From: a virus
IMG/VR virus record: IMGVR_UViG_3300033388_004058
Coordinates: 1 to 22,434 of that record
Length of the DNA: 22,434 bases
Strand: one strand, 5' to 3'
This document shows positions 3,395-21,781 of this stretch, in pieces. The position numbers were made by a program, and so were the translations under genes. Under the pieces are notes generated by a model, which was not told the DNA's origin, searched no databases, and worked only from the letters and a program-made list of their open reading frames with translations. Position 1 is the first letter of the stretch; the number at the start of each line of letters is the position of its first letter.

Positions 3395-4987
3395 TCAATA
3401 TGAACCTCCATCTAGTACGTCAAATTCTGCTAACACCCTAACACCATCTGGCGTGGTAATATCAGTACTTCTAATCACAATATCATTTAGTTGTGTAACA
3501 AATGCCCTGTTAGTGTAACCCGTTGGTCCACTATATTCGGTTATATCTGGAACATTACTAGCAGTAAGACCAGTAAACCCATTCATTGCCCTAATATCAA
3601 AATTAACATCACCAGAAGTAACCCCATTACCATCTTGAATTAACAACCCAGAACCTATTGATGATGAACTAGTATCCCCAGTTGGGTTATAATTAAGTGT
3701 TATTTGATTATCTTCAATATAAAGTTGTCCAGTTGATGCAGTAATCGAATCACCAAAAACAGTTAAATTACCATGAACAACCACATCACCTGTTCCAGAA
3801 GAAGATGGTGAACCACCAGTCCCAACAATTAAACCACCAGTACCAACAAATGCAGAACCAGAAGCTGAAGTATTAATATTACTAGCTAATAAAGTATCAC
3901 TACTATCATCATATTCGAACCCAGATTCATCAGTTAATAAACCACCATTACCAACATAAACCACCCTACCTTTAGTAAGATTGGTTACTGTTAAACCACT
4001 TACGACATCAAAAGAAACAGATACATCAACATCATCATTTCTTTTAAACGTGAAGGTATTTGAATTATCATATGTACCACCTGTGACAAATGTATCATTA
4101 GTGTCTAACCCACTTAAATCAATACTTTCTTGAACACCATCATTTTTATCCAGTAATAAATTAGTTCCAGAAAGTGTACCCCCAGTAATAAATGTATTTT
4201 CAAATTGTAATGTATAAGAATTACCATCTTGATTTTTATAAGATAAGTCAATAACACCAGAATTAGTATTATCTGTAGCTGAAGTTGAAACCGTACCCCC
4301 AGTAACATAAGTATCATTAGACTCAACATATCCAGTCAATGAACCATAATTTACAATTTCTGTAGGTGATTGTCCAGTAGCATTAATTAGATATTTTGTA
4401 ATACCACTTAAAGTAGTTTCATTACTAACTATTAAATTATTAGTGACATTTAAATCATTAAAGGTATCAATAGTTTCATTAACCGAACTACCATTATCTA
4501 AACCTATAGTTAACGTATTAGGAGACCATGTTAAACCAGTAACAACAGTATCTGTAACACCAGTTACTATAACACTTGGTCTACCATTATTCAACCCTAT
4601 AGTTATTTCATCAGTACTTGGATTATACGTTGCCCCAGTTGTAAATGAATCAGTCGAATCAGCAATATCTGTGATATCAGCTAGTACAAAACCATTAGTT
4701 GTACCAGATAAAAACTTACCAGTTAAACCAACACCACTAACATCTTGATACGATGTGATTTTATTCCTTAAACGTAAATCATATAAATTAGAACCAACCT
4801 CAAAGTAGTTAGCAGTTGTACCAGTTCCAGCTGGTGTCCATTCCGATGTTGATGATGTCACACCAGAGTAAAATAATACACCATCAGCTGTATTAACAAT
4901 TGCCTCTCCAGCTTTAAGTGATGTTGCTAATGGTCTATTTACAATATCACTATTTTTAGTTATTAACTGTGTTTTTCTTGTTGCCAT
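3395..4987 (-). CDS. Long tail fibre protein with repeated VTGGT modules (530 aa)
   Basis: Probable tail fibre shaft protein. Residues 20-42 carry AGEAIVNTADG, the Mtd-like N-terminal fibre pattern also seen in 3196-2369. The shaft holds repeated beta modules: TTGATYNPSTDEITIGLNNG and VTGLTWSPNTLTIGLDNG (about 116-165), then DTYVTGGT (225-232), NTFITGGT (264-271) and DTFVTGGT (298-305). A later segment, GNLTVFGDSI with IEDNQITLNYN, is the usual fibre pattern leading to GSGLLIQDGNG. No chaperone/peptidase S74 domain is visible at the C-terminus. Upstream on its strand the start is preceded by an A-rich tract (ATAAAAATAAAAAATG) without a Shine-Dalgarno. It follows the 131-residue fibre-like gene after about 30 bases and ends at a clear terminator. 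Confidence 0.83.
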   Translation of the reverse strand: MATRKTQLITKNSDIVNRPLATSLKAGEAIVNTADGVLFYSGVTSSTSEWTPAGTGTTANYFEVGSNLYDLRLRNKITSYQDVSGVGLTGKFLSGTTNGFVLADITDIADSTDSFTTGATYNPSTDEITIGLNNGRPSVIVTGVTDTVVTGLTWSPNTLTIGLDNGSSVNETIDTFNDLNVTNNLIVSNETTLSGITKYLINATGQSPTEIVNYGSLTGYVESNDTYVTGGTVSTSATDNTNSGVIDLSYKNQDGNSYTLQFENTFITGGTLSGTNLLLDKNDGVQESIDLSGLDTNDTFVTGGTYDNSNTFTFKRNDDVDVSVSFDVVSGLTVTNLTKGRVVYVGNGGLLTDESGFEYDDSSDTLLASNINTSASGSAFVGTGGLIVGTGGSPSSSGTGDVVVHGNLTVFGDSITASTGQLYIEDNQITLNYNPTGDTSSSSIGSGLLIQDGNGVTSGDVNFDIRAMNGFTGLTASNVPDITEYSGPTGYTNRAFVTQLNDIVIRSTDITTPDGVRVLAEFDVLDGGSY

Positions 4988-5018
4988 TTTTTATTTTTAT
5001 AATAAATATTATGTTATA

Positions 5019-5414
5019 TTAATAAGTTCCACCAAATAAACAATCATCTTGTATTATTGAATTATTAGCTGTTATCTTCCTAGAATTACCTAAAGAATCA
5101 TCCCCAAAATCTATTTCTGGTGTCTTAACTTTAGTTTCTGAAACCCATAATGAGGTTGTACCACTAACCACATTTATTTCCCTAAATCTTTTTGTTTTAG
5201 AACCAATACCCAAAGATGAGTCATTTTTTGGTTCTAAATTAGTATTAAATATTGTCGCACCATCTGTTAAAAGTACTTCAGTGTCACCACTACAACTTTC
5301 AATCTTATTGGTATAAACTGCAGTACAAGCACTAACACTAGTGTCACCAGTAACTTCAACCGCCTCAATAATAAAAGTTTTATTTATATTTCCAGTATTA
5401 TTTGTACAACTCAT
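5019..5414 (-). CDS. Small fibre-like structural protein (131 aa)
   Basis: A short beta-rich protein whose middle part, SLGIGSKTKRFREINVVSG (about residues 67-85), matches the motif found in many phage fibres, where LG-x-KRF-x-I-y-v-x-G marks a strand-turn unit. The N-terminus contains several Cys (C3, C30, C41) and Thr/Val strands, and the C-terminus ends CLFGGTY, similar in spirit to the GGSY end of the next gene. The start overlaps the stop of the upstream tail gene by four bases (ATGA), indicating translational coupling. A fibre accessory or adaptor subunit is likely; the exact role is unknown. Confidence 0.7.
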   Translation of the reverse strand: MSCTNNTGNINKTFIIEAVEVTGDTSVSACTAVYTNKIESCSGDTEVLLTDGATIFNTNLEPKNDSSLGIGSKTKRFREINVVSGTTSLWVSETKVKTPEIDFGDDSLGNSRKITANNSIIQDDCLFGGTY

Positions 5415-6448
5415 ATTAGATTACCAATTAATAGAAAACTACTTGTTTTCTCCAAATTTTTTGTTATATCAATAAATATATTATCACCAGCCGTAACTAC
5501 GAATGGGGTTGTAGTTATAACACCATTTACTCTAATATCCAATCCAGTTACATCAACCATATTAATAATATCGTTAAATCTAATATCATAATCAGCCTTA
5601 AATGTTACTGAACTAATCGCTCTAGGTTTAAAAATAAAACTATAATTAACAACACTAGTTTCTTTATCAGTTGTTATCTTTATTCTAGGTTTAGGTGTAC
5701 TCTCCATAACCTCAGAAACCACGAGTGCTCTATTAACCGTTGGTGTTACCTCAAATTTATTTTCATCTAGTAAATATCCAGCTAATTTCATTTCAAATAA
5801 TTGAACATAAAACCTCCTATTTTCAAAATCATCTATCGGACTTTCATCACCAACCGATTCTAAATGAATTGGCATTGGGTGCCCGTTTGGGGCTATATAA
5901 TGTTGTCTAGAATTAAACGTTTCTTGAACCACTTTATGTAATTTATTTAAATCTCTCATTCTATTACAGAACAACCTAACCTCATACGTTACATCAACAG
6001 AAGTTGGTTGAGGTATTTTATATAAATCAATACCCTTCCTACCATTCTCCCAAGTCGGGACTTTAACGTATGTGTATGATTTATGTCCTTGAGGTATATT
6101 CCAGTTACCAGCTTGATTCGTCCCAACTTGAACATCTGGTCTCCTAACAATTGTAATAAACGGTAATTTAATATCTTTAAATTCATCTGAATGTTGCCAA
6201 GTTTTTGAAAACTCAGCCCACCTTTGTATTGTTAAGAATATTACAGGTACTTTATCTCCATCAATAGTTACATTAAAATCTTTATTAATTGATTCAATAA
6301 AAGCTTTATCCATATCTTCATAACCAACCCCCCTAGGTAAAAATGTACCTTGGTTATCAATGTCATCCAAAATTTCCTGTCTTCTATCTGGACCTACTTT
6401 ACCCTTATTAAGTTTAATATTTTTTATAAATCCCTTTGGTAACCCCAT
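5411..6448 (-). CDS. Putative tail completion / sheath-stabiliser-like protein (345 aa; distant gp15-like)
   Basis: A 345-residue protein without membrane segments. The central block (about residues 150-240) runs: strand VDVTYEVRLFCNRMRDLNKL, a helix ending VVQETFNSRQHY, then PNGHPMPIHLESVGDESP, then ENRRFYVQLFEMKLAGYLLD. This order (strand, two-protomer-like helix, target loop, strand pair) recalls T4 gp15, the tail terminator joining tail to neck, which has a comparable YEL-x-IFTRY...NDIPFKRDIKIVL...RRRIEWSLTFEVNGW layout. That is a pattern match by eye, not an alignment score. The gene sits between another neck-like protein (15 bases upstream) and a fibre-like gene (4-base overlap), which fits a tail role. 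If not gp15-like it is still most likely a virion protein. Confidence 0.6.
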   Translation of the reverse strand: MGLPKGFIKNIKLNKGKVGPDRRQEILDDIDNQGTFLPRGVGYEDMDKAFIESINKDFNVTIDGDKVPVIFLTIQRWAEFSKTWQHSDEFKDIKLPFITIVRRPDVQVGTNQAGNWNIPQGHKSYTYVKVPTWENGRKGIDLYKIPQPTSVDVTYEVRLFCNRMRDLNKLHKVVQETFNSRQHYIAPNGHPMPIHLESVGDESPIDDFENRRFYVQLFEMKLAGYLLDENKFEVTPTVNRALVVSEVMESTPKPRIKITTDKETSVVNYSFIFKPRAISSVTFKADYDIRFNDIINMVDVTGLDIRVNGVITTTPFVVTAGDNIFIDITKNLEKTSSFLLIGNLI

Positions 6449-6462
6449 ATTAATAAATATAA

Positions 6463-6981
6463 TTAAAGTCCCCTAAATTCACTAGGGTCTGTAGGTGCAC
6501 ACAAAACAGACCTAAACGCTCCTTTGTAACCCATAATGGTGTGTGCATTATCATAGTTTTTTCTACCATCATTAACAACAGAAAAATACCTAATCTCAGT
6601 TTCAGATACTGGATACCCGATATAATCACCAAAACTAATATCAGTATCCATTTCAGATAACTGTTCATCGTAAATACCAAAAGATAATTGACCATCCTCT
6701 AAATACCTTAATGAACCAGAACTTTGATTATACGCTTTATTAACTGGTGTACTCATAATTGGTATGACTCTAAGTTCAATAGGTGGAAAATATCTAATAT
6801 CATCTTTACCAGCTTCACTATAGACATCATCAGCAGCAGTTGCTTCTCTATCAACTCTATACAGTATTACCACAAAATTACCATCACCCTCAATAGCTTC
6901 CCTACCCATTTCAACTTCAAGCCTGAAATCTTCATAACCAAAAAATTTATTAATTCTAGTAATTGGGATTCGTTTATTCAT
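6463..6981 (-). CDS. Putative virion neck/tail protein (172 aa)
   Basis: A compact 172-residue protein. After a basic N-terminus (MNKRIPITRINKFFGYEDF) it has long beta strands: GNFVVILYRVD, PIELRVIPIMSTP, LEDGQLSFGIYDEQL, FGDYIGYPVSETEIRYFSVVNDG, then a C-terminal HTIMGYKGAFRSVLCAP. The beta-barrel-like arrangement with GDYIGYP resembles small head-closure or neck proteins, but I cannot match a named family. It is the first gene of the leftward block, starting at the divergent intergenic region 6982-7150, with the gp15-like gene 15 bases downstream. In T4-type phages neck genes 13, 14 and 15 cluster, so a gene-14-like role is possible; this is inference from context. Confidence 0.6.
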   Translation of the reverse strand: MNKRIPITRINKFFGYEDFRLEVEMGREAIEGDGNFVVILYRVDREATAADDVYSEAGKDDIRYFPPIELRVIPIMSTPVNKAYNQSSGSLRYLEDGQLSFGIYDEQLSEMDTDISFGDYIGYPVSETEIRYFSVVNDGRKNYDNAHTIMGYKGAFRSVLCAPTDPSEFRGL

Positions 6982-7150
6982 AACTATATTTAATTTTTTT
7001 TATGTTATTATTTAACCTAGTGTTTTTATTTGTTTTAATGTATATTTTTAGATAAATATTTGGTATATAATAAATATCATTAAAGTATTTATTTTTTATT
7101 AATAATGATTATACTTAATTAAATAACAATAAAGCTAAAAGCAAATCATT
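6982..7150. promoter_or_regulatory. Divergent intergenic region, likely promoters both ways
   Basis: This 169-base AT-rich stretch separates the leftward neck gene (start 6981) from the rightward helicase gene (GTG 7151), so it must carry or lie near promoters for both directions. A perfect TATAAT occurs on the plus strand at 7066-7071, about 80 bases before the helicase, but I see no convincing -35 element at the right distance. No terminator hairpin or small gene is visible. Assignment as promoter region is from layout rather than a clear motif. Confidence 0.4.
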
Positions 7151-10030
7151 GTGATAGATTTAAATGACCTTAAAAGTCACTCTGCAATTACACTTCTGAA
7201 AGAGTACGAAGGTAAAAACCCTTACTTACGTAAAATTAAGAGAGAATACTTGAAAAACAACAAAATCAGATTAACTGAAAACCAATCAAGATATATTGTA
7301 GACTTCCACGATAAAGAACCTCAACTAATTAACAAGGTGGTGAATATTAGTGAGTTTTTGGGGGGGGAACTTAAAAAACAAAATGATTTGACATTCACAC
7401 CAGAAAGGGTGTTGATTGAATTCATGTTAGCAGATACTGAAAAAACTTTTCATATCTATGGGAAACTTAAAAGAAATCAAAAGAAGTCAAAGATGTATTG
7501 GTTACCTAAGACTCAAGTAATGGACGACCCATACTTTGAGGAAATAGATATTGACGTGGATTTTGATAAATACGTCACTATGGATAAAAAAGGTAGAACC
7601 CCTTACGACCACCAAAAAGAAGGTATAAAATTCTTATTAACTAGAAATGGTTGCATTCTTGCTGACGATATGGGATTGGGTAAAGCGATAGCTGATGATG
7701 TCCCAGTATTAACACCAGATGGTTGGATACCCCACGGTACATTAAAAGTCGGTGATTATGTAATTGGGTCCAATGGTTCAAAAACTAAAGTATTAGAAGT
7801 TCACCCACAACCATTAAAAGACTATTATAATATTACATTTACAGATGGGACCATTGTTGAGTCCTGTGATGAACATTTATGGAACGTTCAAACAACAAAC
7901 CATAAAAAACGTAATTCTGGTTATCAAACAAAACCATTAAAAGATTTAATTGGTGATTTAACGTATGGTAATAAAGGTAATGTTAAGTGGTATATTCCAA
8001 TGATTAAACCTGTCATATTTAATGTTAGAGAAGTGTTTATAGACCCATACATTTTAGGTTGTATATTAGGTGATGGTGGTATTAGTGGTCATAATATAAA
8101 ATTAAGTTCAGAGGATAGTGAATTAATACAAGAGGTTAATGATAGATTGCCACGAAATCATAGTTTACACTTTATCAAGAATCATGATTATCAATTATGT
8201 GGTAATAATGGTGTTAATAAAATAATTAGACATTTAAGTGATTATGAATTAATAGGTCTCAATTCAGAAACTAAATTTATACCAAAAGATTATTTATATA
8301 ATACTAAAACTATTAGATTAGAGTTATTACAGGGATTATTAGATACTGACGGTTATTGTTCAAGTAAAGATGGAACAATTCAATATTATTCAATTTCTAG
8401 AGAATTAACCAACGGTGTTAAAGAGTTAGTTCAATCGTTTGGTGGTGTTGCTAGGGAAACAAGTAAGATTGGTAAATATAAATTACCAGATGGTACAATC
8501 AAAGAATGTAAAAAATGTTTTATATTAACAATTAATTTACCAGAAGATATAATCCCATTCAAACTACAACGTAAGATTGGTAATATGAAACGTAATAGAA
8601 AGTATTTACCATCTAGAGGTATTAAATCTATTGAATATTCTAGAACTACACATGGGCAATGTATTTCTGTTGAAGCCAAAGATTCATTATATGTTATGGA
8701 CCAATATGTTGTAACTCATAATACTTATCAATCAATTATTGCGGCATTAGAATCTGGTGCTGAAAGAATCCTAATTGTGTGCCCTTCCGCAGTTAAAATC
8801 AACTGGGAGAGAGAAATTAATGATTTCTGCAATGAAACAGCAATCGTTAGCGGTAGGAAATGGGATAGGAGTAAATTTACAATAATAAATTACGATATTC
8901 TTAAAAACTTCCACACAATCGGAGATGGTAAGAAAAATAAAGATGGTCATATTATTGAGTTTAATCGTGAGATGGTTAACTCTAAATTTGATTTATGTAT
9001 TATTGATGAGGCACACTACCTTAAAAACCACAAATCAATTCGTGGTGAAATTATGGTAGACCTTTGTGTTAAACACAAGATTGATAAGGTTTGGTTACTC
9101 ACAGGAACCCCAATTGCAAATAGACCTATGGATTTTTATAATCTATTGAAGCTAATTAAAGCCCCTATAGCTGATAATTGGAAATTCTTTGCACAGAGAT
9201 ACTGTGAGGGTAGAAGATTCTTTAAAACACTTAAAAATGGTCGTAGAAAGCAAATATGGCTTACTGATGGGGCGTCAAATCTTGGTGAACTATCAATTAA
9301 GACTCGTAATGTTATTTTGAGAAGAAAAAAAGTTGATGTGTTGGATATGCCTGATAAACTTGTTGGTTCTGTATATCAAGAGTTAACCAAAAAACAATGG
9401 AAAGAATATGATGACCTATGGGAAGAGTATCTTATTAAGAGAGCTAAGGAAAAGAAAAGGGGTACACCAGATAAAGATTTGGTTGAACTTATACTTCTTA
9501 GACAATTTATTGCTATGGCTGCTATCCCATATACTATTGAGGAAGCAGAAAATGCTATTGGTCAAGGTCAAAAAGTTATCATTTTCACTAGTTTTACTGA
9601 TGAGATAAATGAATTAGCTCACCATTTTGGTAATAAATGTGTAATACACAATGGTTCGATGTCCCCAGTTGCGAAACAAAATAGTGTTGATACGTTCCAG
9701 AATAACCCCAACGTGAAGGTATTTATTGGTAATATTAGGTCTGCTGGTGTTGGGATTACACTAACTGCTGCTGAGTATGTTATATTTAACTCATTTGATT
9801 GGGTTCCAGGGAATAATGAGCAAGCAGAAGACCGAGCATATCGTATCGGACAGAAGAATCACGTAACTGTTAAGTATCAATTATTTAAAGATACAATCTC
9901 AACTAAGATGTGGTGGACACTGAATAAGAAGAAAGATATTATTTCAACAATCATCGGTGAAAAAGAACTTGATGATGTGGAAATTGAAAAAAGAATAATA
10001 GATGAATTAATTGATGTAAATGGAGATTAA
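7151..10030 (+). CDS. SNF2-family DNA helicase/translocase precursor containing an intein (959 aa; 613 after splicing)
   Basis: ATP-dependent DNA translocase of the SNF2 group (superfamily 2), probably acting in phage replication, recombination or repair. Helicase motifs: DDMGLGK (172-178, Walker A, interrupted after the Lys), DEAH (619-622), LLTGTP (649-654), SAGVGITLTAAE (motif V) and QAEDRAYRIGQ (891-901, motif VI). Without residues 179-524 the Walker A reads GLGKTYQS as expected. The start is GTG at 7151: a TAA lies five codons upstream in frame, and the first internal Met in a plausible place is about 90 residues later. Upstream there is no strong Shine-Dalgarno. The 3' end overlaps the glutaredoxin start by 11 bases. 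A run of eight G (7360-7367) lies in the N-terminal part; the frame is open across it. The role relative to T4 UvsW is unknown. Confidence 0.93.
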   Translation: MIDLNDLKSHSAITLLKEYEGKNPYLRKIKREYLKNNKIRLTENQSRYIVDFHDKEPQLINKVVNISEFLGGELKKQNDLTFTPERVLIEFMLADTEKTFHIYGKLKRNQKKSKMYWLPKTQVMDDPYFEEIDIDVDFDKYVTMDKKGRTPYDHQKEGIKFLLTRNGCILADDMGLGKAIADDVPVLTPDGWIPHGTLKVGDYVIGSNGSKTKVLEVHPQPLKDYYNITFTDGTIVESCDEHLWNVQTTNHKKRNSGYQTKPLKDLIGDLTYGNKGNVKWYIPMIKPVIFNVREVFIDPYILGCILGDGGISGHNIKLSSEDSELIQEVNDRLPRNHSLHFIKNHDYQLCGNNGVNKIIRHLSDYELIGLNSETKFIPKDYLYNTKTIRLELLQGLLDTDGYCSSKDGTIQYYSISRELTNGVKELVQSFGGVARETSKIGKYKLPDGTIKECKKCFILTINLPEDIIPFKLQRKIGNMKRNRKYLPSRGIKSIEYSRTTHGQCISVEAKDSLYVMDQYVVTHNTYQSIIAALESGAERILIVCPSAVKINWEREINDFCNETAIVSGRKWDRSKFTIINYDILKNFHTIGDGKKNKDGHIIEFNREMVNSKFDLCIIDEAHYLKNHKSIRGEIMVDLCVKHKIDKVWLLTGTPIANRPMDFYNLLKLIKAPIADNWKFFAQRYCEGRRFFKTLKNGRRKQIWLTDGASNLGELSIKTRNVILRRKKVDVLDMPDKLVGSVYQELTKKQWKEYDDLWEEYLIKRAKEKKRGTPDKDLVELILLRQFIAMAAIPYTIEEAENAIGQGQKVIIFTSFTDEINELAHHFGNKCVIHNGSMSPVAKQNSVDTFQNNPNVKVFIGNIRSAGVGITLTAAEYVIFNSFDWVPGNNEQAEDRAYRIGQKNHVTVKYQLFKDTISTKMWWTLNKKKDIISTIIGEKELDDVEIEKRIIDELIDVNGD
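7685..8722 (+). other. Class 3-type LAGLIDADG intein inserted in helicase Walker A (346 aa)
   Basis: In-frame intervening protein, residues 179-524 of the precursor, between GLGK and TYQS. The first residue is Ala, not Cys/Ser. Block A is VLTPDGW...LKVGDYV; block B is SCDEHLW with Trp244; blocks C and E are the LAGLIDADG motifs LGCILGDGG (Asp308) and GLLDTDG (Asp400), with block D as KFIP (375-378); block F is QCISVE with Cys504; block G is VVTHN with Thr522, His523, Asn524, and the following extein residue is Thr525. The Trp, Cys and Thr at these places form the WCT triplet known for class 3 inteins, which use the block F Cys as first nucleophile. Both LAGLIDADG acidic residues are present, so the homing endonuclease may be active. 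Leucine is TTA in about 29 of 32 cases, unlike the host gene. Confidence 0.93.
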
Positions 10031-10292
10031 CGTATATACAATACCAGAATGCCCTTTTTGTACAAAACTTAAAGGTTTATTAAGTGATGCTGAATTAGTA
10101 TTTAATGAATATAATATCTATGAGGATGAGTATGAAGAAATTTTTGAAAAACTAATGGAATTATCGGGTAGTGATTCAGTACCAATGGTGACCGTTGGTA
10201 AACATCTATTGGCTCCAGACGTTAACTTCAATAGTATAGAACAAGCCATAGAGTTGATTCAACACATCATTAAAGTTGAATCTAGTAATTAA
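10020..10292 (+). CDS. Glutaredoxin (90 aa)
   Basis: Small thiol-disulfide oxidoreductase. The redox motif CPFC lies at residues 11-14, directly after the first strand (INVYTIPE), and the cis-Pro segment SVPMV follows near residue 53, as in the thioredoxin fold. Length (90 residues) is typical of phage and bacterial glutaredoxins. In T4-type phages such proteins reduce ribonucleotide reductase; no reductase gene is in this window, so the partner is inferred. The gene overlaps the end of the helicase gene by 11 bases in another frame, so it is co-transcribed and probably translationally coupled. The Phe in place of the common Tyr between the two Cys is an ordinary variant. Confidence 0.9.
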   Translation: MEINVYTIPECPFCTKLKGLLSDAELVFNEYNIYEDEYEEIFEKLMELSGSDSVPMVTVGKHLLAPDVNFNSIEQAIELIQHIIKVESSN

Positions 10293-11615: not shown

Positions 11616-14600
11616 CTAGAAATCCCATAAATCATCGTCTTCATCCTCATCGAATTTTAAGACATCATCATCATTTGGTTTTGTTGGTTCTGGCTCCTTA
11701 TGGTCTGGTGGTAAACCAACTTTAGTGTTTAACCTCTCTTGTTGATATTTTAAAACATCTTCATAAGCTTGTTTAATCTCAGCATCTACTTTAGCTTGGT
11801 GTTCTTTAACCTTAACCTCAGTTTCACCAACTTTTGGCATCACTACTGGTTCTTTAGTACTACACTCACAACTTTTTTGTTCTTCAACACAAACTTTACA
11901 AGTTCCGATTGTTTTCTCAACCTTCAAAGCTTCCTTAATAACATTTGATTCCCGCAAACCATTCGGGTGCTCAACTAGGTAAGTATTCAACTTATCCTTA
12001 TCCCCCTCAAATTGTTCAAAGCAAGAACATTGACCATCCCATTCTTCTGAACAACATAGTTTATGAGTACAAGTAGGATTAAACCTTTCACTGCTAGATA
12101 AACCATTATTTTTACGTTCAATCTCCATTTGTGTTTCCCATATATCATATTTTGTTTGCCCTCTCTTCAATTTTTTAAATAAGTTTGGGTTCTCTAAATA
12201 ATAATCGTGTCGTTCATTAGCTAAGTTTTTATATTTAAATAAGTCAACTAATTTACACAACCACACATCCCATTTTTCAGAATTAAACGAATGACCGTGT
12301 TCAGTATGTGTGGTTGGGTACGCAACAGTTAATATTTGTTTAGGTAAGACCCCCGACTCCTCAATTAAACTAATCTCATCTTTTTCAAGTCTCTTAAATA
12401 AATTATCTAGTAGTAATTTCTCATCCCTAATACCATCAATTCTAGCTTGTCTCATTCTTTCCTTCCAGTCAGCTTCAAGTGGTAACCATTCATCCATTTC
12501 CATTTGATTGGGTAATTGATTAACAGAAGACCAAAATCTAATTTCTTTATCTTCCATAATCATAAGTGCGTCATATGAGTCTTGGTCAGATTCTTCAAAT
12601 GGTGAGCCAGCAGTCAATTGACATTGTTTTGTTGTGAATTGTCCCCTATCTTGTAAAGACCATTCTAAATCTTTAGCTTTAACACCTTTAATTTTAATTT
12701 TCTCAACCCCTATCAAAATTTCCTCCCTAATATCTGGATTAAAACAAACTAACAATGAGTGAATTCTTTTATTAAATGCCTCTAAATATTTAGCAACATT
12801 ATACTCATTAGTTGTTAATTCTGGATTCTTTTCAATTTGTTCATTTGGTATTAATTTACAGTTAAGTGTAACTGTTTCTCTACCAGTTTTCTTATCAGTA
12901 ACCTTTTTAATATCCCCAGTTGACTTAACACTACCAGTATTAACATAGTAAATAGTGTCCCCATTATCAACATGTAAATCATGTTTAATAGCTAGCTCCA
13001 TGTGAGCCTGTCTAGCTTTTAATGTACCAGCCTTTGTCTTAGTTTTAACATAAACGTTTTTATATTCATTAACGGACATTTTAACCCTTTTTTTAGTTGC
13101 AATCTTAACTAGAGGTATCTTGTAATTAAAAATATCATCAACATAATCATAATAATACTCAACAAATTCCTTACCCTTACCATCCAAAAGCATTCTAACA
13201 CCTTTATCAATAAATTCTTCAATATATATTGGCATAGCTTTAGACTTGATTGAATTACCAACTAACTTAACTTTACCATCAATTAAGTTAGCGTAGTTTT
13301 TACGTCTAAAGTTAATTGTAGATTCACAAATATCATCAATATCAAGCCCCATTCTACCTTCCATATAGACCTCATTAAATTCAGCTAATACAGCCTCTAA
13401 ACCAGATAGTTCTTGACCAGCAGTGAATTTATTTGTCTTCCAATGCTCAGCAGTACAAATATATTTAACCTCATCAACATGGTCTGGAATAGCAAAGTTG
13501 AATCCATCAGTATCACCAACTAACGGTCTAAACCCATGCTTTTCAGTAAAATGTTTTACCATCAACCTCAAGTATTGGCGACCCCTACACGTAATCTCTT
13601 CCGCTGAATCCATATCACCCCAAGGAAATAAGTACGGAGCACCGAATGAACCAAAAAATGAGTTAGCTAAAATTTTAAGTGGTAATTGTTTCTTATCATA
13701 ATCAGAAGCTAAACGCTGGTGTTTTTTAATCAATTTATTAAGGTCAACGATTTCTTGCTCACTCATCGAACCACCATCCTTATCAAGTTGTTCTTGTAAT
13801 TTCTTAGCTAATTTTTTCTCATCACCAGTAAGGAATTTAAACCTATCACGAGTATCAACAACATATGTTAATAAACCTTCCATTACACCAGATATATCTA
13901 ATTTAGGGAATATACCATGTGTTAACTGAGTTTTAGGATATAAGGCAGCATAATCTAGTTTAATAACCCTCATAGCGTAACCAACCTCAAGTAACCTCGC
14001 TAACCCCCCAGTAAATTCTCTTTTAGGTTCAAAATCTGGAATAGCTAGGTTATTCTCTAATGACCATGCAGACATAATTAGTGTCCATGTACCAGCAGTA
14101 CCCATTGTAGAAGAACGCATAAATGACGTTGGTAAAATCTTAGATAGTAAGAATGATGCTTGATTATAAATCGCATCTACTTGCTCAGTTTCCCATAAAT
14201 CATCTAATAAATATCGTTGAACAATATAATCACCATCACACCTAACATATGGTGTATCTTTACCACTAATCTTTTTCAAGTGTTCTGGGTCTGGTGATTT
14301 CACATCATACTCAAACCAATCACCATTTTTATCATTAAGGTAAAACGTAGATTTACTAGACCAAGTTGAATGTAATTTATCCCCCTCAACATAAACCCTA
14401 TTTTTTTTAGCTACTTTAGAAAACTGAGTTATATACTTTAACCCAGCTTTCTTAATATTAGAGTTAATTGCTTGAGCCTTACGAACAGCATGAATTATAT
14501 CCAATATATTATAACCCCACAACATTGTTTGTTCAAAGTACTCAGTTTCTTGACCTAATTTAAGTGTGGATGATTTTCTTTTAATATTAACCCTAGAATT

Positions 14601-15416
14601 TAATGTCTTAGCTAATGATTCAATATTAAGGTATAAAACTTCACATCTTTTATAAAAGTAGTCCCAATCAAAGTTCTCAGAGTTATACCCAGTAATAGTA
14701 TCTGGCTTAATATTATCAATAATAATGAAAAATTCCTTAATAGCCTCACGCTCCGAATCTCGTCTCTCCTGTTCAGTATCACCCTTAATTTCAATAATCC
14801 TTTCAAACCCCCTATTATCCTTCATACCTATCTGAAAAATAGGGTGTCTATATGGGTCTAACCCCATAGTTTCAAGGTCAAACTGGAATCTATGTACATC
14901 ATCATAATCATCCATACCCTTAAATAAACGTTTACCAGTTTGCATCAAAAATTGCTCCTCTGGTCTCATAGACATAAATAAACGCTCTTTACCTTTACCA
15001 CCATAGGTTTCTACACCACCAAACTTAAAAAAATTCTGTAAATCGTTTGGCGTTCCACTACATGTTGCGATATACTTGAAACCCCTAGACATTCTGTCTG
15101 GTTCTTCACCCTGTGAATTTGTGGTTGTTAATCTTTTTATCTTAACCTTATACCTAGACATAGCCTCCCTACGTTTAGTTTTACTACCACCATACAGTTT
15201 ACCAGCAACACTCTCTTTCATCCACATAAATGGTTTGAATTTATGTTGTTCTATATATTTACCTTGTTCTGGGTCATTAATTATTAGCGATACCTTATTA
15301 CTACCGTCCTCAGCCTCAATACCAACAATGTATTTTTGTGGGTCTCTACCTTCAAGAAATTTTTCGATTACATTACTATCTACAGTATTACTACTCGTTT
15401 CTACTTTTTGTGACAT
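11616..15416 (-). CDS. Family-B DNA polymerase with long C-terminal extension (1266 aa)
   Basis: Replicative DNA polymerase with 3'-5' proofreading. Exonuclease motifs: FDLET (Exo I, Asp180 and Glu182), YNSENFDWDYF (Exo II, Asp250) and a likely Exo III in YLLDDLWETE. Polymerase motifs: LDYAALYP (motif A, Asp488; usual form DYxSLYP), LKILANSFFGS (motif B) and GDTDGF (motif C, Asp635 and Asp637; usual form DTDS). T4 gp43 has about 900 residues; here about 630 residues follow motif C, roughly 350 more than in RB69. The extension carries two Cys clusters (Cys1116/1121/1122/1130/1132 and Cys1173/1176/1183/1185). The acidic end DDDLWDF resembles clamp-binding C-termini of T4-type polymerases. A hairpin precedes the start. 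Reading is convergent with the plus-strand block, past a shared terminator. Confidence 0.95.
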   Translation of the reverse strand: MSQKVETSSNTVDSNVIEKFLEGRDPQKYIVGIEAEDGSNKVSLIINDPEQGKYIEQHKFKPFMWMKESVAGKLYGGSKTKRREAMSRYKVKIKRLTTTNSQGEEPDRMSRGFKYIATCSGTPNDLQNFFKFGGVETYGGKGKERLFMSMRPEEQFLMQTGKRLFKGMDDYDDVHRFQFDLETMGLDPYRHPIFQIGMKDNRGFERIIEIKGDTEQERRDSEREAIKEFFIIIDNIKPDTITGYNSENFDWDYFYKRCEVLYLNIESLAKTLNSRVNIKRKSSTLKLGQETEYFEQTMLWGYNILDIIHAVRKAQAINSNIKKAGLKYITQFSKVAKKNRVYVEGDKLHSTWSSKSTFYLNDKNGDWFEYDVKSPDPEHLKKISGKDTPYVRCDGDYIVQRYLLDDLWETEQVDAIYNQASFLLSKILPTSFMRSSTMGTAGTWTLIMSAWSLENNLAIPDFEPKREFTGGLARLLEVGYAMRVIKLDYAALYPKTQLTHGIFPKLDISGVMEGLLTYVVDTRDRFKFLTGDEKKLAKKLQEQLDKDGGSMSEQEIVDLNKLIKKHQRLASDYDKKQLPLKILANSFFGSFGAPYLFPWGDMDSAEEITCRGRQYLRLMVKHFTEKHGFRPLVGDTDGFNFAIPDHVDEVKYICTAEHWKTNKFTAGQELSGLEAVLAEFNEVYMEGRMGLDIDDICESTINFRRKNYANLIDGKVKLVGNSIKSKAMPIYIEEFIDKGVRMLLDGKGKEFVEYYYDYVDDIFNYKIPLVKIATKKRVKMSVNEYKNVYVKTKTKAGTLKARQAHMELAIKHDLHVDNGDTIYYVNTGSVKSTGDIKKVTDKKTGRETVTLNCKLIPNEQIEKNPELTTNEYNVAKYLEAFNKRIHSLLVCFNPDIREEILIGVEKIKIKGVKAKDLEWSLQDRGQFTTKQCQLTAGSPFEESDQDSYDALMIMEDKEIRFWSSVNQLPNQMEMDEWLPLEADWKERMRQARIDGIRDEKLLLDNLFKRLEKDEISLIEESGVLPKQILTVAYPTTHTEHGHSFNSEKWDVWLCKLVDLFKYKNLANERHDYYLENPNLFKKLKRGQTKYDIWETQMEIERKNNGLSSSERFNPTCTHKLCCSEEWDGQCSCFEQFEGDKDKLNTYLVEHPNGLRESNVIKEALKVEKTIGTCKVCVEEQKSCECSTKEPVVMPKVGETEVKVKEHQAKVDAEIKQAYEDVLKYQQERLNTKVGLPPDHKEPEPTKPNDDDVLKFDEDEDDDLWDF

Positions 15417-19507: not shown

Positions 19508-21781
19508 TTATTGTAATATATTATAGAAAAAATCTACCCTATCATCAGCATCCAAATCAAAACCAGAAATAGTACCATTCCAGTAGTACACATCACCAGC
19601 AGAAATAGAAGCGATATTCTTAGCTGTAGTACCACCATCACTAGAAAAGTAACCATCTTTAGTTTTAACACCATCACCTAATGAATAACCAACACCATTT
19701 ATCTCAACCTTAACATAACCATTATTTACTGGTGTATTAGTAATCGTAAGTGTTGTACTAGCAAAATTACCACTAGTAACAGCAGGTGTTTTATCCTTAT
19801 CATCAACTGATTGTACAGCTAACTGTAATAAATCGTAGTCGATACCGACAGTTGCAACACCATCAATTGTTGTTGCAGTAATAGCTGTATTACCAGAAAC
19901 GGTTTCTAACACGGTACCACCAGTATATGAAGTGAATCCAGCATTACCAACTACAGTTATAATACCATTATTAATCGTTAAACCAGTTGAGTATGTATCA
20001 TCAACACTTAATGTTGAACCGTCCACAACCATTCCGTTTGCATCTAATGCTAATGGCGTTACAGCTGTTGTACCATTAAGTGTTTTAATATTTAACTTCT
20101 GAACGTGTGCTGTATTAGCTGATACTGAAGTTATATTAGAACCAATAATATGTGAATTATTATGTGTGGATGTATTATTAGTACCACCAATTATCGAAGA
20201 GTTATTACCACTAATCACATTAGTACGACCACCACCAATAGTTGAGTATAAACCAGTAATATTATTATCATAACCACCAGCAATAGTTGAATAACCATAA
20301 CCTCCAGCCACAGTAATGTCATTATTATTACCACCACCAATAGTGTTAGCATAACTGTAACCACCGATACTATTATTTGTACCACCAGCAATTGTACTGT
20401 AAGTCGTAGGGTTAGTCCCATCACCAATAGTATTACTACTACCACCACCAATAAAAGAATCATTGTTACCACTCTCTATAGTGTTACCACCTAATTTTGG
20501 TAATACTGCATTTGTTGATGATGTCCCATATTTAAATGGTGATTCATCAAGTATTGGTGTTAAATCAACATTATATAGATTACTACCTTGAATATTATTT
20601 GTAAACGTTATAGCGTTACCACTTAACGCTGCTGATGTGGTATAACTATCAGTCATTCCAGACGTAAACCCACTAACTTCAAATGTATTTCCAGAATTAT
20701 TTGTAAATGTAACAACACCAGTTGATACTTCATACGTACCACCAGTAACATTAACATCATTAGCTAATAAACCTAAATTAGTTACAATAGTCGTACTATC
20801 GTTAAGACTAAGTGTTAAATCATATGTACTATTATCAAAAGACATACCATCTACAAACCCCTCTACACCAGCTAAACCACTAAGAGTGTTTTTAGTAATC
20901 TGACCATCTAATTCCCTAATTAATATATGGTTATTTCCAGAATTAGGTGGTAGTGTATCTATATTAAGTTGTGAAACATAAACCATATTATCGGTACCCC
21001 CAGTTATATTTGAACCACCTAAAACAACAGTATTCTCTCCACTAGCTATTGAATCATTTGAATGTACGAACGAACCCTCACCACTAGCTGTTGAACCATC
21101 ACCACCAGCATGTGAATAATCACCACTAGCAACAGTACTCTTACCTTCAGCATGAGACGCACTACCACCAGCAATAGTCAATTGACCTTCAGCATGTGAA
21201 GAAGCACCACTTGCAATTGTACTATCACCTTCAGAATGTGAAGCACTACCACTTGCTTCAGTACCTATACCTTGAGAATGTGAAAAATTACCACTAGCGG
21301 TTGTACCATTACCTTCAGCATGTGACCTCAACCCAGAAGCATTAGTCCCAAAACCTTCAGCATGAGATATATCACCACCTGCAATAGTCAATTGACCTTC
21401 AGCGTGTGAACATTCACCACTTGCAATTGTGATATAACCTTTACCTGCTACATCACCACCTTCAGCATGTGAAGCAACACCACTAGCGATATTCCCCTTA
21501 CCTTCAGCATGTGAATAATCACCACTAGCTGTGGTTGAAATACCTTCAGACACTGATAATGTACCACTTGCTACACCACCACTACCTTTTAAAACTGCTG
21601 AGTCAGTACCAGTTCCAGCTGACCATAACCCTTCAGCTATGCTATTAACCCAAGCAAAACCTCCATTAGAAGCATCATAAGACAAAATTTGCCCATTAGT
21701 TGCTGTCGCCCCAGTAACCAATAATAAATTCTCTTTTAATGTATTTTGTTTTAATTGTTTACCATTAATTAAATTACCCAT
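19508..21781 (-). CDS. Large trimeric-adhesin-like fibre protein with two beta-roll repeat arrays (757 aa)
   Basis: Probable receptor-binding fibre. Residues 1-10 (MGNLINGKQL) match the small fibre protein 19448-19203. Residues 76-250 are YadA-head-like 14-residue repeats with the core SHAEG-x-x-T-x-ASG: ten clear copies plus degenerate ends, with one 7-residue insertion. VTGGT and FTSYTGGTV fibre modules appear around residues 345 and 620. Residues about 440-548 hold a second array with STIGGG-x-NN-x-I units, also typical of left-handed beta-rolls. The C-terminal 100 residues contain VDDKDKTPAVTSGNFASTTL and DGYFSSDGGTTAKNIASI, a fibre tip-like domain. The start has no Shine-Dalgarno; the leader is almost pure A/G. 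No membrane anchor of true autotransporters is present, so it is a virion protein rather than a secreted adhesin. Confidence 0.85.
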   Translation of the reverse strand: MGNLINGKQLKQNTLKENLLLVTGATATNGQILSYDASNGGFAWVNSIAEGLWSAGTGTDSAVLKGSGGVASGTLSVSEGISTTASGDYSHAEGKGNIASGVASHAEGGDVAGKGYITIASGECSHAEGQLTIAGGDISHAEGFGTNASGLRSHAEGNGTTASGNFSHSQGIGTEASGSASHSEGDSTIASGASSHAEGQLTIAGGSASHAEGKSTVASGDYSHAGGDGSTASGEGSFVHSNDSIASGENTVVLGGSNITGGTDNMVYVSQLNIDTLPPNSGNNHILIRELDGQITKNTLSGLAGVEGFVDGMSFDNSTYDLTLSLNDSTTIVTNLGLLANDVNVTGGTYEVSTGVVTFTNNSGNTFEVSGFTSGMTDSYTTSAALSGNAITFTNNIQGSNLYNVDLTPILDESPFKYGTSSTNAVLPKLGGNTIESGNNDSFIGGGSSNTIGDGTNPTTYSTIAGGTNNSIGGYSYANTIGGGNNNDITVAGGYGYSTIAGGYDNNITGLYSTIGGGRTNVISGNNSSIIGGTNNTSTHNNSHIIGSNITSVSANTAHVQKLNIKTLNGTTAVTPLALDANGMVVDGSTLSVDDTYSTGLTINNGIITVVGNAGFTSYTGGTVLETVSGNTAITATTIDGVATVGIDYDLLQLAVQSVDDKDKTPAVTSGNFASTTLTITNTPVNNGYVKVEINGVGYSLGDGVKTKDGYFSSDGGTTAKNIASISAGDVYYWNGTISGFDLDADDRVDFFYNILQ
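20138..20463 (-). repeat. Beta-roll repeat array 2 (GGG-x-NN-x-I units) within the 757-aa fibre gene
   Basis: Roughly seven irregular repeats such as STIAGGTNNSI, NTIGGGNNNDI, STIAGGYDNNI, STIGGGRTNVI and SIIGGTNNT. The units are more variable in length than array 1. The pattern is known from trimeric beta-roll fibres and adhesins. Confidence 0.7.
21014..21556 (-). repeat. YadA-like 14-residue (42-bp) tandem repeat array 1
   Basis: Ten copies of SHAEG (variants SHSQG, SHSEG, SHAGG) at 14-residue spacing, with one 21-residue step, plus degenerate flanking units. A 30-base segment occurs twice with one difference (21171-21200 and 21381-21410), exactly five units (210 bases) apart, which implies duplication of a multi-unit block. 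Confidence 0.88.

Follow-up and report, generated by a model that had tools for sequence, protein, structure and literature searches.

Class 3 inteins are defined by a Trp at position 12 of block B (B12), a Cys at position 4 of block F (F4) and a Thr at position 5 of block G (G5). The F4 Cys is the nucleophile of the first, class-specific branched intermediate (PMC3196547, PMC4031507, PMC5222942). In the structure of the M. chimaera DnaB1 intein, a protease-like triad is formed by Cys124, His65 and Thr143 (PMC7664689). A survey lists 1,701 class 3 inteins and finds LAGLIDADG motifs in 82.5% (PMC7891396). For the Deinococcus radiodurans Snf2 intein, both splicing and the block F branched intermediate are on record (Southworth and Perler 2002 and Brace et al. 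2010, as cited in PMC3196547). Kelley et al. 2016 describe inteins of mycobacteriophages that are class 3 with the Trp-Cys-Thr (WCT) signature; a P-loop insertion that parts the Lys from the Thr was termed 'classic' for them, and a HepA-related helicase is among their hosts (PMC5050341).

The window analysed here, a 22,434-nucleotide stretch of viral DNA, carries the SNF2 helicase gene of a probable jumbo phage, and the Walker A motif of that helicase is interrupted by what is best read as a full-length, mobile class 3 intein. In this reading, to which a probability of about 0.94 is assigned, the intein would splice via Cys504 of the precursor, leave the P-loop split beforehand and be capable of homing. 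The reading is built on the anatomy, homology, signature residues, modelled fold, insertion site and empty alleles. The original prediction cautioned that SNF2-hosted class 3 inteins may already be known, and the D. radiodurans case bears this out: by its published description in PMC3196547, that intein shares class and host protein family with the window intein, although its host lies on a bacterial chromosome rather than in a phage. The mycobacteriophage inteins share the class 3 WCT signature, the phage setting and the Lys/Thr P-loop site, but come from other phages and have chiefly terminases as hosts (PMC5050341). Mycobacterial DnaB class 3 inteins (6bs8, 6rix/6riy) align over the splicing domain, with corresponding W, C, T, H and N residues; they differ in their DnaB host, and the crystallised forms are without an endonuclease domain. 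Walker A class 3 inteins in Erwinia phages Kwan and Rebecca, Erythrobacter phage L02, Brevundimonas phage Domovoi and the uncultured phage LR756508 are, like the window intein, full-length, LAGLIDADG-bearing and inserted at GK^T. They are 33–43% identical to it, have A, V, G or M as residue 1, and sit in helicases or ATPases, some of which are distantly or not detectably similar to the window helicase.

Among Deinococcota genomes, full-length matches with a readable C-terminal junction have a non-SNF2 host (THN^TLNDAFIILD). One candidate for a Deinococcota Snf2 intein, L232, was rejected for its Asp at F4.

The precursor gene is organised as follows, with the matching empty site given last.

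7151 to 10030, plus strand: precursor open reading frame, 959 residues with a GTG start; SNF2-family helicase split by the intein (PF00176 and PF00271)
7151 to 7684, plus strand: N-extein, ending ...ADDMGLGK, the Walker A motif as far as its Lys
7685 to 8722, plus strand: class 3 intein with LAGLIDADG homing endonuclease, 346 residues
8723 to 10027, plus strand: C-extein, beginning with the +1 Thr525 (8723 to 8725), which is the Walker A Thr, followed by the remaining SNF2 motor
Empty site of the L019 type, with insertion at ^: ...GGACTTGGTAAA^ACCTATCAATC...

The helicase thus consists of precursor residues 1–178 and 525–959, and the insert of residues 179–524. Pfam matches to the precursor include PF00176 (E = 3.3e-30), which spans the insert, and PF00271 (E = 3.9e-14), and the precursor also matches the phrog_62 DNA helicase (E = 2e-105). 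SNF2_N and Helicase_C domains, a Walker A motif, a DEAH-type motif and motif VI (QAEDRAYRIGQ) are all present. The host protein is confirmed as an SNF2 helicase interrupted inside its ATP-binding loop by an intein. Several neighbouring features were recorded. A small glutaredoxin gene (10020–10292, plus strand; PF00462, E = 7.8e-13) overlaps the end of the helicase frame. A 1,266-residue family B DNA polymerase lies at 11616–15416 on the minus strand (phrog_262, E = 2.3e-64); its match stops near residue 827, and the C-terminal 440 or so residues have none. At 21070–21570, many short overlapping matches to several places of L002, on both strands, suggest a repetitive coding stretch within the frame at 19508–21781.

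The insert parts the Walker A Lys from the Thr that follows it. The original prediction of an intein at 7685–8722 holds to the codon: the span is exactly 346 codons, beginning with Ala and ending in THN, and its removal leaves a continuous 613-residue protein reading DDMGLGK|TYQS. Eight distinct empty SNF2 genes on IMG/VR contigs align without a gap at this GLGK|T/S join. In the closest of them, L019, the join reads DDMGLGK^TYQSIIAALESG, the same as the spliced window protein across that stretch. DNA homology to L019 stops at window position 7684 and restarts at 8719, which correspond to L019 positions 6000 and 5997; L019 is a base-exact empty site for the window intein. The spliced window helicase is 93% identical to that of L019, and the regions flanking the insert are colinear. 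L019 lies within a 353-kb phage contig, and no relatives of the window intein were found anywhere in that contig. From this large, intein-free and colinear relative, together with the helicase identity, the window most likely represents some 22 kb of a jumbo-phage genome of roughly 350 kb.

An open reading frame that runs unbroken across the insert would also be expected of an in-frame functional helicase domain, or could come from an assembly artefact. This explanation is extremely improbable, as the insert separates the Lys–Thr pair of Walker A, it matches inteins whose hosts are unrelated, among them terminases and further P-loop or non-SNF2 proteins, and relatives occupy the same codon in independent metagenome contigs. 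Within the intein, the following elements can be placed.

7685 to 7723, plus strand: block A, AIADDVPVLTPDG, with a non-nucleophilic Ala1
7847 to 7888, plus strand: block B, with Cys61 at B7 (7865–7867), His64 at B10 (7874–7876) and Trp66 at B12 (7880–7882; W244 of the precursor)
8045 to 8077, plus strand: LAGLIDADG motif 1 (block C), PYILGCILGDG, with Asp130 at the catalytic position
8315 to 8467, plus strand: LAGLIDADG_3 domain match (Pfam PF14528, residues 211–261), which includes motif 2
8318 to 8353, plus strand: LAGLIDADG motif 2, LELLQGLLDTDG, with Asp220/Asp222
8651 to 8698, plus strand: block F, with Cys326 at F4 (8660–8662; C504 of the precursor), the predicted initiating nucleophile
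8714 to 8722, plus strand: end of block G, with Thr344 (G5), His345 (G6) and Asn346 (G7)

Translation places A179, W244, C504, T522-H523-N524 and T525 of the precursor where they had been claimed. The middle of the insert, which the first reading left unmentioned, is a LAGLIDADG endonuclease domain (PF14528, E = 3.6e-12). Its acidic residues D130 and D220/D222 are present and are conserved in nearly all relatives among 128 non-redundant inteins; the insert therefore contains an intact-looking homing endonuclease and is probably a mobile element. Third-position GC content is 0.147 in the intein, compared with 0.26–0.34 in the exteins.

A tblastn search with the intein alone finds matches in 779 phage records, with E-values down to 3e-70, a degree of sequence similarity that is far beyond chance. 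Over its full length, the insert aligns with inteins from many phages and also from bacterial genomes. H64, W66, C326, T344, H345 and N346 are among the positions invariant in 16 aligned inteins. Wider counts were made on 128 non-redundant inteins clustered at 80% identity; they were gathered by similarity to the window intein and therefore sample its own family, not all inteins. H64, C326 and N346 are conserved in all 128, W66 and H345 in 127, and T344 in 126. The +1 residue is Thr in 119, Ser in six and Cys in three. Residue 1 is far more variable: Ala in 88, Ser in 10, Val in six, Cys and Gly in five each, Phe and Leu in three each, with others including Glu, Pro and Asp. At B7, the original prediction correctly read a Cys in the CDEH of block B but took it as unusual. 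Cys is the commonest residue there (71 of 128, against six with Thr), so CDEH is no oddity in this family.

Comparisons with solved structures point the same way. By sequence, the family profile finds the class 3 inteins of known structure 6rix, 6riy and 6bs8 over blocks A and B, with a second, weaker match over blocks F and G, and it also matches 6riz, a gp41-1 intein engineered with WCT (blocks A–B, and more weakly F–G). An AlphaFold model of the intein, made with 69 sequences, has a pLDDT of 96.3 and a pTM of 0.93. Over its whole length, the model best matches PI-SceI (E = 3.9e-16), with I-DmoI also matched, and its splicing domain matches the fold of the class 3 DnaB inteins (6rix, 6riy, 6bs8). 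Like the window intein, PI-SceI combines a Hint domain with a two-motif LAGLIDADG endonuclease; it differs in being class 1 and in having yeast VMA1 as its host.

The class assignment turns on the residues around block F. All three members of the claimed Trp-Cys-Thr signature are present as defined in PMC3196547: W66 at B12, C326 at F4 and T344 in the terminal T344-H345-N346, together with a non-nucleophilic Ala1 and a +1 Thr. C326, H64 and T344 align with Cys124, His65 and Thr143 of M. chimaera DnaB1, so that Cys504, whose position in block F was the test set beforehand, stands opposite the catalytic Cys. In the intein tree, the window intein falls in a starred clade of WCT inteins, and class 1 is represented by one sequence on a very long branch of its own. 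The WCT and residue-1 pattern is in itself evidence of conservation, not of chemistry.

Ala at residue 1 is also found in class 2 inteins, in which case the +1 Thr would itself attack the N-terminal junction, and the Cys of block F would be incidental. Class 2 inteins so far are orthologs of the archaeal KlbA intein, whose prototype has Asp at F4 (PMC4031507), and they use Cys as the attacking +1 residue. The window intein has Cys at F4 and Thr at +1, and the F4 Cys recurs in 128 of 128 relatives alongside the B12 Trp and G5 Thr, making a class 2 route very unlikely. Similarly low odds attach to a degenerate, non-splicing intein that leaves a dead helicase. Such loss has a precedent in the class 3 clade: Arth_1007 is an inactive pseudogene intein in which neither the Cys at F4 nor the His of block B is present (PMC3196547). 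The window intein keeps both of these residues, its frame is open, all splicing and endonuclease signature residues are intact and its fold is confidently predicted. Both extein halves are likewise intact, with 93% identity to a homolog that has no insert.

With every sequence hallmark of the class in place, the mechanism with the best support is that of class 3, and splicing via Cys504 is very likely. After translation, Cys504, activated by His242 and Thr522, would attack the Lys178–Ala179 bond, and the N-extein would be held on Cys504 as the first branched thioester. Transfer of the N-extein from Cys504 to the +1 Thr525 would follow, and Asn524 would then cyclise with the assistance of His523. 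The products would be a helicase of 613 residues, its exteins joined as ...GLGK-TYQS..., and a released intein of 346 residues. Because the insert separates the Walker A Lys from its Thr, the precursor is expected to bind ATP abnormally until splicing and is probably without ATPase activity. In a co-infected cell, the freed LAGLIDADG domain may cleave alleles that lack the intein, at the conserved codons of the P-loop, and repair of the cut allele would copy the intein in, completing homing.

The distribution of inteins at this site is patchy. On a helicase tree of 25 exteins, a site coded as empty or as holding an intein of clade I or of clade II requires at least eight changes. The nearest neighbour of the window helicase is empty, and the sister helicases L037 and L084 (96*) carry inteins from different clades. 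This distribution, the empty site and the low GC3 make up the usual picture of a homing intein, and active homing is a plausible reading of it. Forcing the two clades together at the Walker A site costs 36.6 log-likelihood units, with a p-AU of 0.088 that does not reject their common origin at 0.05; two independent invasions are therefore not claimed.

Clade II inteins at the Walker A site have C, F, L, G or A as residue 1. In a tree of representatives clustered at 80%, built without residue 1, Cys1 arises in clade II by one change, nested among inteins with other first residues, and WCT is kept. L073 (Ala1) and L046 (Cys1) are 82% identical and both WCT-intact, a pair hidden by the 80% clustering. 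Cys1 together with a full WCT signature occurs in the Walker A inteins of L028, L046, L065 and L074. Such Cys1/Ala1 variation fits a dispensable residue 1. Class 3 inteins that keep Cys1 or Ser1 have reportedly been described before, by Tori and Perler in 2011, and for this reason Cys1-bearing class 3 inteins are not claimed as new. It is possible, if rather doubtful, that divergent class 3 inteins have entered and left the same Walker A codon of one helicase gene several times over in these jumbo phages, with Cys1 arising once within one clade.

Variation was also seen elsewhere in these genes. The first LAGLIDADG motif of L073 reads LGNGHI where relatives have LGDGHI, with splicing residues intact; its endonuclease may be inactive, because an acidic residue is replaced by Asn. 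Motif VI of this SNF2 helicase family holds another intein site (QAEDR^C...NVHN^CYRIGQ), as in the L030 frame at 5443–8373. The same long frame is present in L031–L035, and the motif VI intein also occurs in L046, where its start is followed by the contig end, and in L084, which has both a Walker A class 3 intein and the motif VI intein. The splicing blocks of the motif VI intein (Cys1, Asp at F4, Val at G5) look like those of class 1. In Pseudomonas phage PA1C (L011, MK599315), the SNF2 intein frame is divided into two overlapping frames, 3500–4543 and 4483–6654, with the break within the endonuclease region; this may be a frameshift, whether real or introduced by sequencing, or the intein may be arranged in split form.

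The window intein is a sound but ordinary addition, because its family and mechanism are already well described and both the SNF2 host and the Lys/Thr P-loop site have been published. Alone, it is one further mobile class 3 intein beside some 1,700 known. Its modest value lies in the comparison set, which joins very close empty alleles with Cys1/Ala1 natural variants at one site and would permit direct tests of homing and of residue-1 dispensability. If the Cys1 and F4 Cys routes both work in inteins of this kind, these natural pairs could reveal how intein classes interconvert.
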